Shown here: positions 14,915 to 34,707 of the stretch, piece after piece | Layout of the letters: every line of letters begins with the position of its first letter | How positions within the stretch are numbered: the stretch's first letter is position 1 | Source: Candidatus Nomurabacteria bacterium RIFCSPHIGHO2_01_FULL_41_71 | GTDB lineage: Bacteria > Patescibacteriota > Minisyncoccia > Phycocordibacterales > UBA9973 | Reading direction: 5' to 3' | DNA: 34,973 nt | Assembly: GCA_001785355.1 (NCBI GenBank) | Contig: MFTQ01000010.1 | Span: 1-34,973 of the forward strand | The notes under the pieces: model-generated | Told to the model about the DNA's origin: nothing | What the model saw: the letters and a program-made list of their open reading frames with translations, nothing else | The model's database searches: none | Position numbers and translations under genes: made by a program

Positions 14915-15520
14915 TTAAAGGTGGAAATAATTTCTGAGTTTTTCTTCTCTCAATAAATTTTCTACGGTTAAAATCTCTACGAACTTACTTACTCCGAAGA
15001 AATCGGCAATGAAAATAATTTCATCTTTACAGGGATAAGGAAAAATCCAGGCAGATTTCTGGAATTTGAAGAAATTTAATTCCTTTAAATGATAACGCAG
15101 GGCTTCCCTGCCTTTGGTAAATCGCATTGGAATATCAAAAATGACCAATCTCCATTTGCCATCCCATTTTTTTTGTTTTTTGATTTCCATTAGATCAATA
15201 GCGAAGGCTCTTAATCTCATTTTTCCCTTTTTAGTAATTTTAACAACTGTTTTTCCATTTTTGTCGCAGATATATTCGATCAACTTCTGATTTTTGATAT
15301 TATTAACAGCGCTTTTGATTTGTATTTTAGAATATTTTTTAGAACCCTTAAACATTTTAAAACATTGAACCGCATTACCCATAGCTGAAGCCCCTAAGAC
15401 AAGAATCGGAATTGAAGCGATAGCCAACACACACAGGGCAACTGTGGCGATTTTGGCTTCAGTTGTCTCAGAATTTAAGAAGTCTCTCAACTTTTCCGTA
15501 TAATTATCTTTGTCCGCCAT
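14915..15520 (-). CDS. PaaX-like protein with hydrophobic N-terminal segment, winged-HTH-like region and Cas2-like domain, paralog 2
   Basis: VALCVLAIASIPILVLGASAMG hydrophobic segment; RLVIFDIPMRFTKGREALRYHLKELNFFKFQKSAWIFPYPC core. Confidence 0.75.
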   Translation of the reverse strand: MADKDNYTEKLRDFLNSETTEAKIATVALCVLAIASIPILVLGASAMGNAVQCFKMFKGSKKYSKIQIKSAVNNIKNQKLIEYICDKNGKTVVKITKKGKMRLRAFAIDLMEIKKQKKWDGKWRLVIFDIPMRFTKGREALRYHLKELNFFKFQKSAWIFPYPCKDEIIFIADFFGVSKFVEILTVENLLREEKLRNYFHL

Positions 15521-27140: not shown

Positions 27141-27731
27141 TTATATATTTTTCTTAATTTTTTCAATTGTTCCCGTTTTGCTTATTTCAAAAATCTCTAC
27201 AAATTCTAGAATACCTAATCGTTCCAAGTCCAGTACCATTTTTTTTGGAATTTTTCGCTTCCCTATCCACACACTCTTGTGAACCATTTCAAAACCAAGG
27301 TTTCTGATAACTTCTCTGAGCCAGTCGCGTTTTCTGCGAAATTTCTCCGGAATATCAAAGCTGATTATAGCCAAGTTAACTTTATTCTCTAACTCATAAT
27401 ATCTTTCAGGTAATGCATCTTTTAGGTGTTTTAGCTTTAGTTTGCCTTCTTTTGAAATTTTAAATTTATTGCCATTTTTGCCCACTTTTTCAATAAGACC
27501 GTCCCGTTTCATTTTATAAATAAACTTTTCTAGACGTCTTTTTCTTTCTTTTAGTTTAAGTTTTCGAAATATCTCATGCTCGCGAGCACTTTGGCGTTTG
27601 TTGTGTTCATAATCTATTTTTCCCATGCTTGCTCCATAACCGCTTGCCAAAACAGCCTCAAAAAAATCAACCTGACTCAAAGCTTGGTCGTAAAGTGATT
27701 CCAAAATACTTAACAGAATTTTGCCTCTCAT
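27141..27731 (-). CDS. PaaX-like protein with Cas2-like domain, paralog 3
   Basis: MRGKILLSILESLYDQ...KMKRDGLIEKVGKNGNKFKISKEGKLKL; LAIISFDIPEKFRRKRDWLREVIRNLGFEMVHKSVWIGKRKIP; start trimmed from 27785 because the upstream part is palindrome. Confidence 0.75.
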   Translation of the reverse strand: MRGKILLSILESLYDQALSQVDFFEAVLASGYGASMGKIDYEHNKRQSAREHEIFRKLKLKERKRRLEKFIYKMKRDGLIEKVGKNGNKFKISKEGKLKLKHLKDALPERYYELENKVNLAIISFDIPEKFRRKRDWLREVIRNLGFEMVHKSVWIGKRKIPKKMVLDLERLGILEFVEIFEISKTGTIEKIKKNI

Positions 27732-27738
27732 GTTATGA

Positions 27739-27774
27739 AGTCTACCATATTCACGATCGTGAGTGTAGTGGACA
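27739..27774. repeat. 36-bp palindrome, cassette 3, upstream copy
   Basis: AGTCTACCATATTCACGA|TCGTGAGTGTAGTGGACA, 13/18 paired, core TCACGATCGTGA. Confidence 0.85.
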
Positions 27775-27794
27775 AAATTAACCAACTTCTTAAA

Positions 27795-30248
<2,454 letters not shown>

Positions 30249-30318
30249 TTAGTTATAAAAACATATATGTCAATTGAAAAACCTTTACTTCACAGTAATT
30301 TTTGATTATATTAAAGAA

Positions 30319-31458
30319 ATGGCAAATTATGAAATAACTTCTCTTGAAGAAATAAATATAAAGAAAGATTTAGAATCAAAAAATGATGCTCAAAGCTTGC
30401 GTATAAGACGTTACCTTGCAATGCCCGACCTCTCTCGCGCTTCGGGTAGCCCAATTGCTGAAATCGTCAAGCGCATTTTAGACTGTCCATATTTTAAGGA
30501 TTTGGATATAATCAAAATTCCAGAAATCGTGCCAGCAAGAATAAGTTTTGATTTGTTCGATTTTCCCACCAATCATCCCGCGCGTAGCAAATCTGACACT
30601 TATTATGTAGATGAAGATCACATTTTGCGCACTCACACGACAGTTATGTGGTATTACTATCTAGAGGACGAAAAAATTAAAGAGAAAATTAAGAAACAGG
30701 AAACAATCGGGTGTTTTTCTTTTGGTAAGGTATATCGCAAAGACGAGATTGACAACAAACACATGAATGTTTTTCATCAAATTGATGGCTGGTATCTCGT
30801 GCCAAAAACAATGAAAACTGTCACTCAAAAAGATCTGGAGGATGCTCTTGGAAACATTGCCAAGGCAGTATTTGGTCCGGAAACTAAGTATCGGCTCAAT
30901 ACAGATACTTTTCCTTACACAGATCCATCTTTGGAAATGGAAGTGAAAATTGATAACAAATGGATAGAAGTTGTTGGTTGCGGAGTAGTTAAAGGATCAG
31001 TTTTAGAAAAACTTGGTGTCAATTCAAAGAATTACACGGGCTGGGCTTTCGGCTTTGGACTAGAACGTCTAGCAATAGCTAGTATGAATTTACCGGACAT
31101 TCGTTTGCTTTGGTCCGACGATGAGAGAGTAAAAAGGCAACTCAAGCTTGGACATAAATTTGTCGAGGTCAGCAAATACCCGCCGATTACGCGAGATATT
31201 TCTTTCGTAGTGGAAAATGATTTTGTGCCGAATGATTATTTTGATTTCGTGAGGGAAATAGCCCCGGAAATTGTAGAAGAAATAAAACTTTTGGATAAAT
31301 ACGAAAACGCGGAAAAATGGGGCGTTGGAAAAATAAGTTATGCTTACCGCATCACCTACCGCTCTTTAGAGAGAACTCTCACATCCGAAGAGATAGATGA
31401 GATTCACAAGAAACTAGAAACAGAAACTGCTAAAATTTTTGGAGCGGTAATTCGCTAA
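30319..31458 (+). CDS. pheS: Single-chain phenylalanyl-tRNA synthetase (alpha-type catalytic core + C-terminal FDX-ACB domain)
   Basis: DTYYVDEDHILRTHTTVMW, FSFGKVYRKDEIDNKHMNVFHQIDG, GWAFGFGLERLAIA; C-terminal KYPPITRDISFVV...TYRSLERTLTSEEIDEIHKKL is the FDX-ACB pattern normally at the PheT C-terminus. Confidence 0.85.
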   Translation: MANYEITSLEEINIKKDLESKNDAQSLRIRRYLAMPDLSRASGSPIAEIVKRILDCPYFKDLDIIKIPEIVPARISFDLFDFPTNHPARSKSDTYYVDEDHILRTHTTVMWYYYLEDEKIKEKIKKQETIGCFSFGKVYRKDEIDNKHMNVFHQIDGWYLVPKTMKTVTQKDLEDALGNIAKAVFGPETKYRLNTDTFPYTDPSLEMEVKIDNKWIEVVGCGVVKGSVLEKLGVNSKNYTGWAFGFGLERLAIASMNLPDIRLLWSDDERVKRQLKLGHKFVEVSKYPPITRDISFVVENDFVPNDYFDFVREIAPEIVEEIKLLDKYENAEKWGVGKISYAYRITYRSLERTLTSEEIDEIHKKLETETAKIFGAVIR

Positions 31459-31675: not shown

Positions 31676-34582
31676 CTATTTTTTATAAATCTCGGCCATT
31701 TTGCAATATTCGCATTCCGTTACCTTACCATAAGAGTTATACCGACAAGACCGGTTTACCCATTCGCCCTTCTTGACTAATTCGTCATAATCATATATGT
31801 CTTTTATCAAAAGCTCAATTTCTTCCGATGTAACCGCGTGAGTATAAATCATTTCTTTTGGATCTTTCGCTTCTAGGTATTCCAATCTGCTTTCAGCAAC
31901 TTTCACTTTCCCCCATTTCGGTGTACCGGATAAAAGATAAGTATACATAGCGAGCTGGCGAGCCAGATTTGAAAGTCTTCCTTCATCGTCGCGTTTTTCT
32001 ATATCAATTTTTTTCTTCGGACTGCCTGTCTTGAAATCCGTCACCCGCACATTTTTGCCTCCTAACTTTTCGATAAGGTCAATCCGCCCGTAGATAGAGA
32101 GATGCGGAAATCGCTTGTCGGTAAAAGAGACAGGCTGTTCATTTTCCCTGTCTTCCGTAATTTCCTTTAATCTATTTTTAACCCAGAAAGACACTACCTT
32201 CGCTACCTCTTTTTCTTCAGGAAGAATTACCTTTTTTAGTTTTAAAATTTTATCAATGGCCTTGTGTACTTTATCTCCGAATTCGAGGCTTTCGGTCTTC
32301 AACCCCGGGAGCTGAAGCAAACTTCTGAAATACCATTTCCATGGACACTCAAAGAAATTATTCAGGAGAGACACCGACACCTTCCTGCTTTCGTAATCCT
32401 GAGCCACAATTTTTTTCAAATCATCCAGACTGGTGTGTTTTTCTTTATTTTTTTCATTCTTACCAGGACCTGCGACATAAGCTCTCGGATCATTCTTTAA
32501 AATATTTTTTTCCGTTTCTTTGGCGGATTGCTTTTCAAAATCAGACGATATATCCGAGACTATATGCGCAAGCTCTTGGTCGCTTCCGGTATATGAAAAA
32601 AGCGAGAAAGAAATAACGCAAAATCTCTTGGCTCTCGTTATGGCCACATATAATTCCCGTTTCAGAACTTCCATATTTCTTTTTTCTATTCTTTCATCAA
32701 ACGATTCCGGGAGAGCAAAGCCTCCATAATGTCTGCTAAAAAAAGATTTTTGGTCCATGTGCCCTATCCAAACATAATCAAATTCTAGCCCTTTGGATCC
32801 ATGAAGAGTGAGAACTTTCACTCCATCGTCCGGAGAAAAAACGGCAAGCGGTATGTCTTCTCCGTAAATTTCCATTCTACCCAGAAAATCCAAAAAATCA
32901 CCCAGGGTTAATTTTGGATTTTTTTCGATCCGAGACAGCGCCAGATGAAGCATGGTTCGGATAACTTCGATCCTAGATATCAAATCTCCATGATTAGTGG
33001 CCGTATCGAGCAGAAATTCAGCGCCTATTTTCTGAATAAGCGAATAAATCGGCTGACTGGAAAACGCAAGCCATGTTTTCAGCTTCCCCAACCAAGCATT
33101 TACTTCGGAAGGAAACAATGTGGAGGTATCTTTTAAGTTCAGTAGAGAGAATTCCCGCATATTGTTCGCTTTTATAAACTCATGAGAACGGATAGGGGGA
33201 ATCATGGAATGCTTGTCAAAAATACTTTCTGCCAAAACTTGCCCGTCGTCCGGATGAGCCAAGATCTTAAGCACCCGAATCAGGGCAGTAGTTTCCGGTA
33301 GATCGAAAAAATCAATCATCCACCCTCCCGCCACCGGAATCCCCATATCTTTAAGGATAGCAATAGCGCTCCGCACCTGGCGATTCTTCGGCAAGAGCAC
33401 GGCTATTTCATTTGGATCTATTCCGTTCTTGATCTTTTCTCTTATTTCCATTCCCGCGCATATAATCTCATCTCTCGGATAATACGCTTCCACCAAACGC
33501 ATAGCATGGCTAACTTTGCTTTTACTTTTTAATTTTTCTTTAGTGATAACGCTTTCAAGAAGAGCATGGGAGGAGTCCAGAATTTTCTGGGTAGAACGAT
33601 AATTTTCCACCAGAGTAATAAGTTTGGCCTTGCCGAAAGTATGCTTGAAATTCTCAAAATATTCAAGCGAGGCTCCGCCAAAGCCGTAAATCAGCTGACG
33701 ATCGTCCCCAACCACGAAAATATTCGGCTTCTCTACTATCCCCCATACAGCTTTCAAAAATTCATTCTGCGCTCCGCTCGAATCCTGATGTTCGTCCACC
33801 AAAACATACAGAAAATTCAATCTCATTTCTTCCGCCGCCTCTTCTGATTCGCGCACTATGGACACCAGGGACTTCAAGATATCGTCGTAATCGAACAAAT
33901 TTTTTTCTTTTTTCTTTTCTTCGTATACGTAATAAAATTTGGCGGCTTCAAGCGATCTACGCAGGCTCTCTATTTTCCTTTCCGCGTCTTTTTTTAACTC
34001 TCCCTTTCTCTCTCCGCGCGAAGATAAACTCGAAGGATCTTTCGAGACAAATTCAATCTCGCTTTTTATTTCTTTTTTGAAATCTTCCGGAGAAATACCC
34101 TCTCTCTTTAAAATAGATATCAGACTTCTGAGATCGCGGAAATATCGGGAGGAATCGGATCGGGGCCGTATATGCTCCCAATCATTCTCATATAATATAT
34201 CGTCAAAAAGCGAAACAGCATCCTTCTCATCCAAAAGTTTAGGTTCCTCCCGCAGACCCAGCGCTTGAAAATATTTACCAAGCATATCCATACCGAAACT
34301 ATGAAAAGTCGCCACCTTTACTTTGGAGGCTTCCGAGCCGATATATCGGCGCAAGCGTTCGCGCATGGATGCCACCGCGGAATTGGTAAAAGTCAGGCAC
34401 AGAATGCTGTCAGATTTGGTATCCGTTTTTTTCAGAATATTCCCTATGCGAAGAGCAAGCACCTGGGTTTTGCCCGTGCCCGGACCGGCCACCACCATTA
34501 CCGGACCCTCTATCCAATCCACCGCCTCCTTCTGCCTAGAATTTAATTTCTTGTATTCTGTTTCAAAAGTTTTATTGTTCAT
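31676..34582 (-). CDS. UvrD/PcrA-type SF1 helicase with C-terminal PD-(D/E)XK nuclease and likely Fe-S cysteine cluster
   Basis: LNSRQKEAVDWIEGPVMVVAGPGTGKTQVLALRI, LVDEHQDSS, VVGDDRQLIYGFGGA, TLHGSKGLEFDYVWI, VAITRAKRF; SLLNNFFECPWKWYFRSLL, VTDFKTGS, CRYNSYGKVTECEYC. Confidence 0.92.
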   Translation of the reverse strand: MNNKTFETEYKKLNSRQKEAVDWIEGPVMVVAGPGTGKTQVLALRIGNILKKTDTKSDSILCLTFTNSAVASMRERLRRYIGSEASKVKVATFHSFGMDMLGKYFQALGLREEPKLLDEKDAVSLFDDILYENDWEHIRPRSDSSRYFRDLRSLISILKREGISPEDFKKEIKSEIEFVSKDPSSLSSRGERKGELKKDAERKIESLRRSLEAAKFYYVYEEKKKEKNLFDYDDILKSLVSIVRESEEAAEEMRLNFLYVLVDEHQDSSGAQNEFLKAVWGIVEKPNIFVVGDDRQLIYGFGGASLEYFENFKHTFGKAKLITLVENYRSTQKILDSSHALLESVITKEKLKSKSKVSHAMRLVEAYYPRDEIICAGMEIREKIKNGIDPNEIAVLLPKNRQVRSAIAILKDMGIPVAGGWMIDFFDLPETTALIRVLKILAHPDDGQVLAESIFDKHSMIPPIRSHEFIKANNMREFSLLNLKDTSTLFPSEVNAWLGKLKTWLAFSSQPIYSLIQKIGAEFLLDTATNHGDLISRIEVIRTMLHLALSRIEKNPKLTLGDFLDFLGRMEIYGEDIPLAVFSPDDGVKVLTLHGSKGLEFDYVWIGHMDQKSFFSRHYGGFALPESFDERIEKRNMEVLKRELYVAITRAKRFCVISFSLFSYTGSDQELAHIVSDISSDFEKQSAKETEKNILKNDPRAYVAGPGKNEKNKEKHTSLDDLKKIVAQDYESRKVSVSLLNNFFECPWKWYFRSLLQLPGLKTESLEFGDKVHKAIDKILKLKKVILPEEKEVAKVVSFWVKNRLKEITEDRENEQPVSFTDKRFPHLSIYGRIDLIEKLGGKNVRVTDFKTGSPKKKIDIEKRDDEGRLSNLARQLAMYTYLLSGTPKWGKVKVAESRLEYLEAKDPKEMIYTHAVTSEEIELLIKDIYDYDELVKKGEWVNRSCRYNSYGKVTECEYCKMAEIYKK

Positions 34583-34707
34583 TCTGAAGTTCACTTAAAA
34601 TTATATCACTAACACAAACTAGCCGCCGATCCGATAAATGGCGGAGAAACGGACGGCCCGTATTTGCATTTTCCCAATTGGCGGTACTTTTTGGTTAAAA
34701 TCCGAAC

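Follow-up and report, generated by a model that had tools for sequence, protein, structure and literature searches.

How does a bacterium charge its tRNA-Phe when its phenylalanyl-tRNA synthetase (PheRS) locus holds one gene instead of two? This question is raised by contig 10 of the draft assembly of Candidatus Nomurabacteria bacterium RIFCSPHIGHO2_01_FULL_41_71, of which we analyzed a stretch of 34,973 nucleotides (MFTQ01000010.1, positions 1 to 34,973; hereafter the window). Few synthetases are as complex as PheRS. Reviews describe the alpha2-beta2 enzyme as the bacterial form and an editing-free single chain as the mitochondrial one (PMC11580382, PMC7373986), and AARS Online distinguishes PheRS-A, PheRS-B and, for mitochondria, PheRS-M (PMC11580382). 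Earlier work on atypical synthetases of candidate phyla bacteria noted for PheRS only that B2 is absent from many beta subunits (PMC5370408). In the literature that we searched, which lay mostly outside the subscription journals and thus does not prove absence, no report of a bacterial single-chain PheRS was found. The single-chain layout is known from mitochondria; new is a bacterial single-chain PheRS that replaces pheST.

The PheRS gene and its surroundings

The gene (30319..31458, plus strand) is an uninterrupted frame of 379 amino acids with an ATG start, carries matches to PF01409 and PF03147 and aligns over its full length with 90 relatives. A PheS-type class II catalytic core at residues 42-274 (30442..31140, plus strand; PF01409 tRNA-synt_2d, E 7e-54) is followed, after a linker of about 10 residues, by an FDX-ACB anticodon-binding domain at residues 285-379 (31171..31455, plus strand; PF03147, E 9e-23). 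As both matches lie far above the cut-offs, the two-domain layout is not due to chance. The first-pass annotation had read the locus as a PheS core running directly into FDX-ACB, with no pheT adjacent and a helicase as the next gene, and the domain searches and the flanks bear this out. On one side lies the divergent gyrB (27795..29894, minus strand; PF00204 and others, synteny), whose frame is annotated up to 30224 but whose start we place near 29894 from its relatives. On the other side lies a convergent UvrD/AddA-type helicase-nuclease (31676..34594, minus strand; PF00580, PF13361, PF12705, synteny), a flank that is kept in the genus.

Between gyrB and the PheRS gene lies an AT-rich intergenic region (29895..30318), in which a stretch of very high G+C content contains an inverted repeat (29978-30150). 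A promoter-like TTTACT-17-TATATT (30284..30312, plus strand) ends about 6 bases before the ATG of the PheRS gene; in the pattern scan such matches occurred at chance number, and similar upstream sequence was present in several relatives. The position of this element and the sequence shared by the relatives suggest that the mRNA may be nearly leaderless. Besides, two proteins with a PaaX_M Cas2-like domain are encoded elsewhere in the window (14915-15520 and 27141-27785).

No partner gene in the genome

The assembly comprises 634,259 bases on 22 contigs and is 97% complete. Genome-wide, TIGR00472 (pheT_bact) matched just the FDX-ACB tail of the single-chain gene and revealed no pheT core, and PF03147 was found once, in this same gene, so that an overlooked pheT was rejected. 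No second clear PheS was detected in the genome with PF01409; the other match was marginal (E 9e-4, a 497-aa frame on C21) and probably represents a different class II synthetase. Among 37 tRNA matches in the genome there is one tRNA-Phe(GAA) (G000:C21:21312). This tRNA needs to be charged and the single-chain gene is the sole candidate. Taken together with the genome comparisons below, the gene very probably provides the cell with its sole phenylalanyl-tRNA synthetase, a single-chain enzyme that has displaced pheST. A pheT elsewhere in the genome would speak against the first-pass reading, but a pheT core was found neither here nor in any of the 35 single-chain genomes of the phylum sample described below.

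Distribution across the Patescibacteria

We searched 380 Patescibacteria genomes, each at least 90% complete, with TIGR00472 and with the family alignment. Single-chain PheRS was present in 35 of them (about one in 11), with scores of 364-719 bits and next matches of at most 179 bits; three of these genes lie at contig edges and one is apparently frameshifted. A pheT core was found in none of the 35, as judged by E-values (1e-11 to 1e-33), since TIGR00472 gave only matches of FDX-ACB strength or to small tRNA-binding domains. Among the remaining 345 genomes at least 320 have a clear pheT core by our own count from the TIGR00472 search. Near relatives of the window's protein include members with 77, 76, 65, 64, 57 and 45% identity, each from a genome without a pheT core, and most other relatives' genomes encode PheS and PheT and no single chain. 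The 35 genomes fall into 11 family-level groups. Moreover, a scan of named genomes yielded 443 confirmed single-chain loci, the best 80 of which are labelled as Nomurabacteria, Zambryskibacteria, Doudnabacteria, Yanofskybacteria, Giovannonibacteria, Kaiserbacteria, other Patescibacteria or entries merely named 'bacterium'. The single-chain layout is thus a family patchily spread in Patescibacteria and not a one-off. Screens in which pheT serves as a universal marker will give wrong counts for genomes of this kind.

With regard to a viral source, IMG/VR contigs contained no relative of the single chain, a phage collection gave PheS-like matches and one SrmL-like megaphage protein but nothing else, and no plasmid match spanned 80% of the protein. 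Two genomes in which no PheRS was found (G008 and G018, 99-100% complete) were considered as a third solution and rejected. The neighboring gyrB and ThrRS are absent as well, which points to an assembly gap, and G008 has tRNA-Phe; PheRS, gyrB and ThrRS are lacking together, so that both assemblies miss an entire segment in spite of their high completeness rating. In the relatives with PheST from the same genus and order (L026-L047), PheS is short (about 230-260 aa) and lacks the N-terminal coiled-coil region. Their PheT lacks the B2 tRNA-binding region, and small stand-alone proteins matching PheT at about 40-123 are encoded elsewhere in these genomes.

Replacement of pheST at the gyrB locus

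Genus-mates with PheST have the order AddA - pheS - pheT - gyrB, all in one direction, followed by ThrRS, NusB and RNase III. In the single-chain genomes (the window's genome G000 as well as G015, G016, G023, G024 and G149) it is AddA - single chain - gyrB - ThrRS, NusB and RNase III; here the single chain is oriented away from gyrB. AddA and the PheRS gene are not immediate neighbors everywhere, as some genomes have one or a few ORFs in between. The single chain therefore occupies the pheST slot of the genus between gyrB and the AddA-like helicase, and pheST was displaced in place. Two genomes of two other families (G031, G222) also carry the single chain near gyrB, but on the same strand as gyrB.

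The enzyme type switches repeatedly within the genus. The gyrB tree requires six changes of PheRS type, at least four of which are forced by starred branches, and a four-marker tree likewise forces at least four changes within the genus; for example, G023 with a single chain stands beside G012 with PheST (100/100). The tree of the single chains themselves scatters the copies of the genus, with the window, G023 and G024 near family f51, G149 and G016 near f74 and G015 alone, and its starred branches force three changes. Repeated transfer into the gyrB locus is the simplest reading. The AddA of G021 and G024 is only about 30% identical to that of the window and looks exchanged, so recombination of the flanks may contribute. 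These swaps at one locus provide a natural series for studying the loss of editing and tRNA identity.

A precedent is known from diatom plastids, where a retargeted mitochondrial-type monomeric PheRS displaced the alpha-beta PheRS (PMC4494062). In the diatoms, however, a nuclear gene was retargeted to an organelle, whereas here pheST was replaced on a bacterial chromosome.

Active site and predicted structure

In human mitochondrial PheRS, phenylalanine is held by His119 and Ser121 (PMC5521548) and by Gln157, Glu159, Phe232 and Phe234. In this order, the six residues correspond to H106, T108, Q154, D156, F198 and Y200 of the window's protein. The substrate loop H106-T107-T108-V109-M110-W111 (30634..30651, plus strand) keeps the histidine in 83/90 sequences of the family alignment, and its T108 and W111, both invariant (90/90), replace a Ser and a Gln of PheS and of the human mitochondrial enzyme. 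The counterpart of Gln157 and Glu159 is H153-Q154-I155-D156 (30775..30786, plus strand), with Q in 89/90 and D in 79/90. F198-P199-Y200 (30910..30918, plus strand), with F in 89/90 and Y in 87/90, takes the place of the FPF motif, which clamps the Phe ring. The motif 2 arginine R140 (30736..30738, plus strand; an arginine also in E. coli PheS, R195, and in the human mitochondrial enzyme) and the motif 3 arginine R250 (31066..31068, plus strand) are each found in 90/90. The Phe- and ATP-binding residues of the mitochondrial type are thus kept with conservative changes, except for 11 sequences with G at D156.

An AlphaFold2 model built from 50 family members (pLDDT 93.6, pTM 0.89) matches the closed state of human mitochondrial PheRS (5mgh) over its whole length (TM 0.79, rmsd 3.6), and the tRNA-bound open state less well (TM 0.58). 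The FDX-ACB domain of the human enzyme rotates by about 160 degrees to bind tRNA (PMC5521548). By analogy, the free bacterial enzyme would be closed and its FDX-ACB domain would swing open to admit the tRNA. The PheS-type core would activate phenylalanine with ATP and charge tRNA-Phe, and the C-terminal FDX-ACB, normally the end of PheT, would recognize the GAA anticodon. As the genome content includes no pheT, we infer that the protein acts as a monomer without a beta subunit.

Mitochondrial PheRS lacks B3/B4 editing (PMC7373986). With the B3/B4 editing domain of PheT absent, discrimination between Phe and Tyr must come from the synthetic site. The pocket changes specific to the family, i.e. 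Ser to Thr and Gln to Trp at 111 in all 90 sequences, Glu to Asp in 79 (Gly in 11) and FPF to FPY in 87, might sharpen the rejection of Tyr, which is a speculation. At several positions the pocket has residues seen neither in PheS nor in human mitochondrial PheRS, which also counts against our reading of the gene as a phenylalanyl-tRNA synthetase. Replacement of a two-gene editing enzyme by one of 379 amino acids across the phylum suggests that bacterial translation can do without PheT, including its domain for editing in cis.

Genomes with the two enzyme types did not differ obviously in the few tRNA-Phe genes that we compared, a number too small for a conclusion; the pattern search was too loose and returned mostly tRNA-Ser(UGA)-like and chance matches. 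The usual bacterial tRNA-Phe carries A37. In the genomes L275-L281 and L260 the GAA anticodon of the tRNA-Phe genes is followed by G37.

Relation to known PheRS types and origin of the family

The first-pass annotation had assigned the gene to the mitochondrial single-chain type. This held for the domains and the whole-length predicted fold, but not for the profile: with TIGR00469 the window scores 243.6 and six relatives 216-247.5 bits, all below the cut-off of 258.35 bits, and the single chain is not filed under this family because it misses this value. Like mitochondrial PheRS (PheRS-M, human FARS2), it is one chain with a PheS-type core and a C-terminal FDX-ACB and without an editing domain, and the best sequence matches among solved structures are all human mitochondrial PheRS (197 bits; bacterial PheS 124 bits). 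Unlike the mitochondrial enzyme, it is encoded on a bacterial chromosome, and it has W111 where the mitochondrial protein has Gln, FPY for FPF and Asp for Glu159. By analogy it would work like mitochondrial PheRS. With the bacterial alpha2-beta2 enzyme (PheS/PheT; TIGR00468, TIGR00472) it shares homologous core and FDX-ACB domains as well as the pheST locus by gyrB, but it has no beta chain, no B1/B5, no B3/B4 and no tRNA-binding B2, and its core falls outside the sampled PheS. With TIGR00468 (cut-off 237.45 bits) the window reaches 163.1 bits, while true PheS, including the short patescibacterial ones, reach 294-402. The core alone scores 169 with the mitochondrial and 161 with the PheS model, compared to 116-132 and 294-402 for four true PheS.

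Could the protein nevertheless be an alpha subunit that still pairs with a beta subunit, one that is highly divergent or missing from the assembly? The genome sequence is a draft, and divergent or split pheT genes exist elsewhere in the phylum. However, the FDX-ACB domain expected from PheT is already part of the chain, the single-chain gene sits in the very slot of pheST, and all 35 single-chain genomes lack the pheT core, which leaves such a partner barely conceivable. Slightly less remote, but still very unlikely, is a PheS paralogue with another job, similar to SrmL, the 'PheS-related mystery ligase' (NF051887), with tRNA-Phe being charged by something unseen. SrmL is also a two-domain single chain of identical layout, NF051887 narrowly ranks first among the NCBIfam matches of the window's protein (246.8 vs 243.6 bits), and the pocket changes also speak for this reading. 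Yet 246.8 bits lie below the cut-off of 300 bits, which no member of the single-chain family in the 380 genomes exceeds, whereas true SrmL of the same phylum score 360-401. SrmL forms a separate clade (100/100) and has H at the position of F198, E at that of G220 and I at that of W111; the F of FPF and G220, both missing from SrmL, are kept in the single-chain family. In addition, it is this family that replaces PheST genome by genome and in the PheST slot.

A third reading accepts a single-chain PheRS and derives it from a recent fusion within Patescibacteria, in which pheS of the lineage itself was joined to the 3' part of pheT and converged on the mitochondrial layout. The constituent parts would be the same, and the FDX-ACB tree places pheT tails of the same order beside the family and the human mitochondrial sequence, on an unstarred branch (88/82). 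In the core tree (206 columns, mixture model), however, all PheS, bacterial and patescibacterial, are separated from the single-chain family, SrmL and human mitochondrial PheRS (98/99). Constraining the family to group with patescibacterial PheS was rejected (AU p 0.017), as was grouping with PheS of the same order (AU p 0.011). A combined tree of core and FDX-ACB, in which each PheS core was joined to the FDX-ACB of its own PheT, separated single chains from PheST with 100/96 and, without SrmL, with 100/100, with some doubt kept by the long branches. The sequence comparisons thus disfavor a recent fusion of patescibacterial pheS, which we regard as unlikely.

The phylogeny against mitochondrial and bacterial PheRS proposed in the first-pass annotation accordingly sets the single-chain family apart from the sampled PheS and suggests descent from the single-chain lineage to which the mitochondrial enzyme belongs. 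The FDX-ACB tree, which is independent of the core, groups the human mitochondrial sequence with the single-chain family (96/86) and leaves SrmL outside. A sister relationship to mitochondrial PheRS is suggested and not more, because the trees contain one mitochondrial sequence (human, with about 35 residues missing) on a long branch; they have no archaeal root and do not settle the order of the mitochondrial enzyme, SrmL and the family. As a bacterial candidate relative of mitochondrial PheRS, the single chain makes the mitochondrial origin testable. It is possible, although we hold it for rather doubtful, that mitochondrial PheRS has its bacterial sister group or its source in the patescibacterial single-chain lineage. 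It would then descend from a single-chain enzyme that already circulated among bacteria and repeatedly displaced the editing heterotetramer, and not from an alphaproteobacterial PheST that shrank inside eukaryotes.

A general replacement of PheST by SrmL across the phylum was rejected, since only one of the 380 genomes (G165) has a protein above the NF051887 cut-off and this genome keeps PheS and PheT. A genome of the same order as the window (G037, 97% complete) encodes an SrmL above the cut-off (L025, G037:C20), and no other PheS or pheT core was found in it; SrmL might charge tRNA-Phe there, or the PheRS locus might be missing. A 359-aa megaphage protein with PheS and FDX-ACB domains (L236:2950-4029; LR745206.1, an uncultured phage of 634,780 bp) groups with SrmL and not with the window's family, and an Azotobacter plasmid (L284:5818-6930) carries a gene similar to this megaphage gene.
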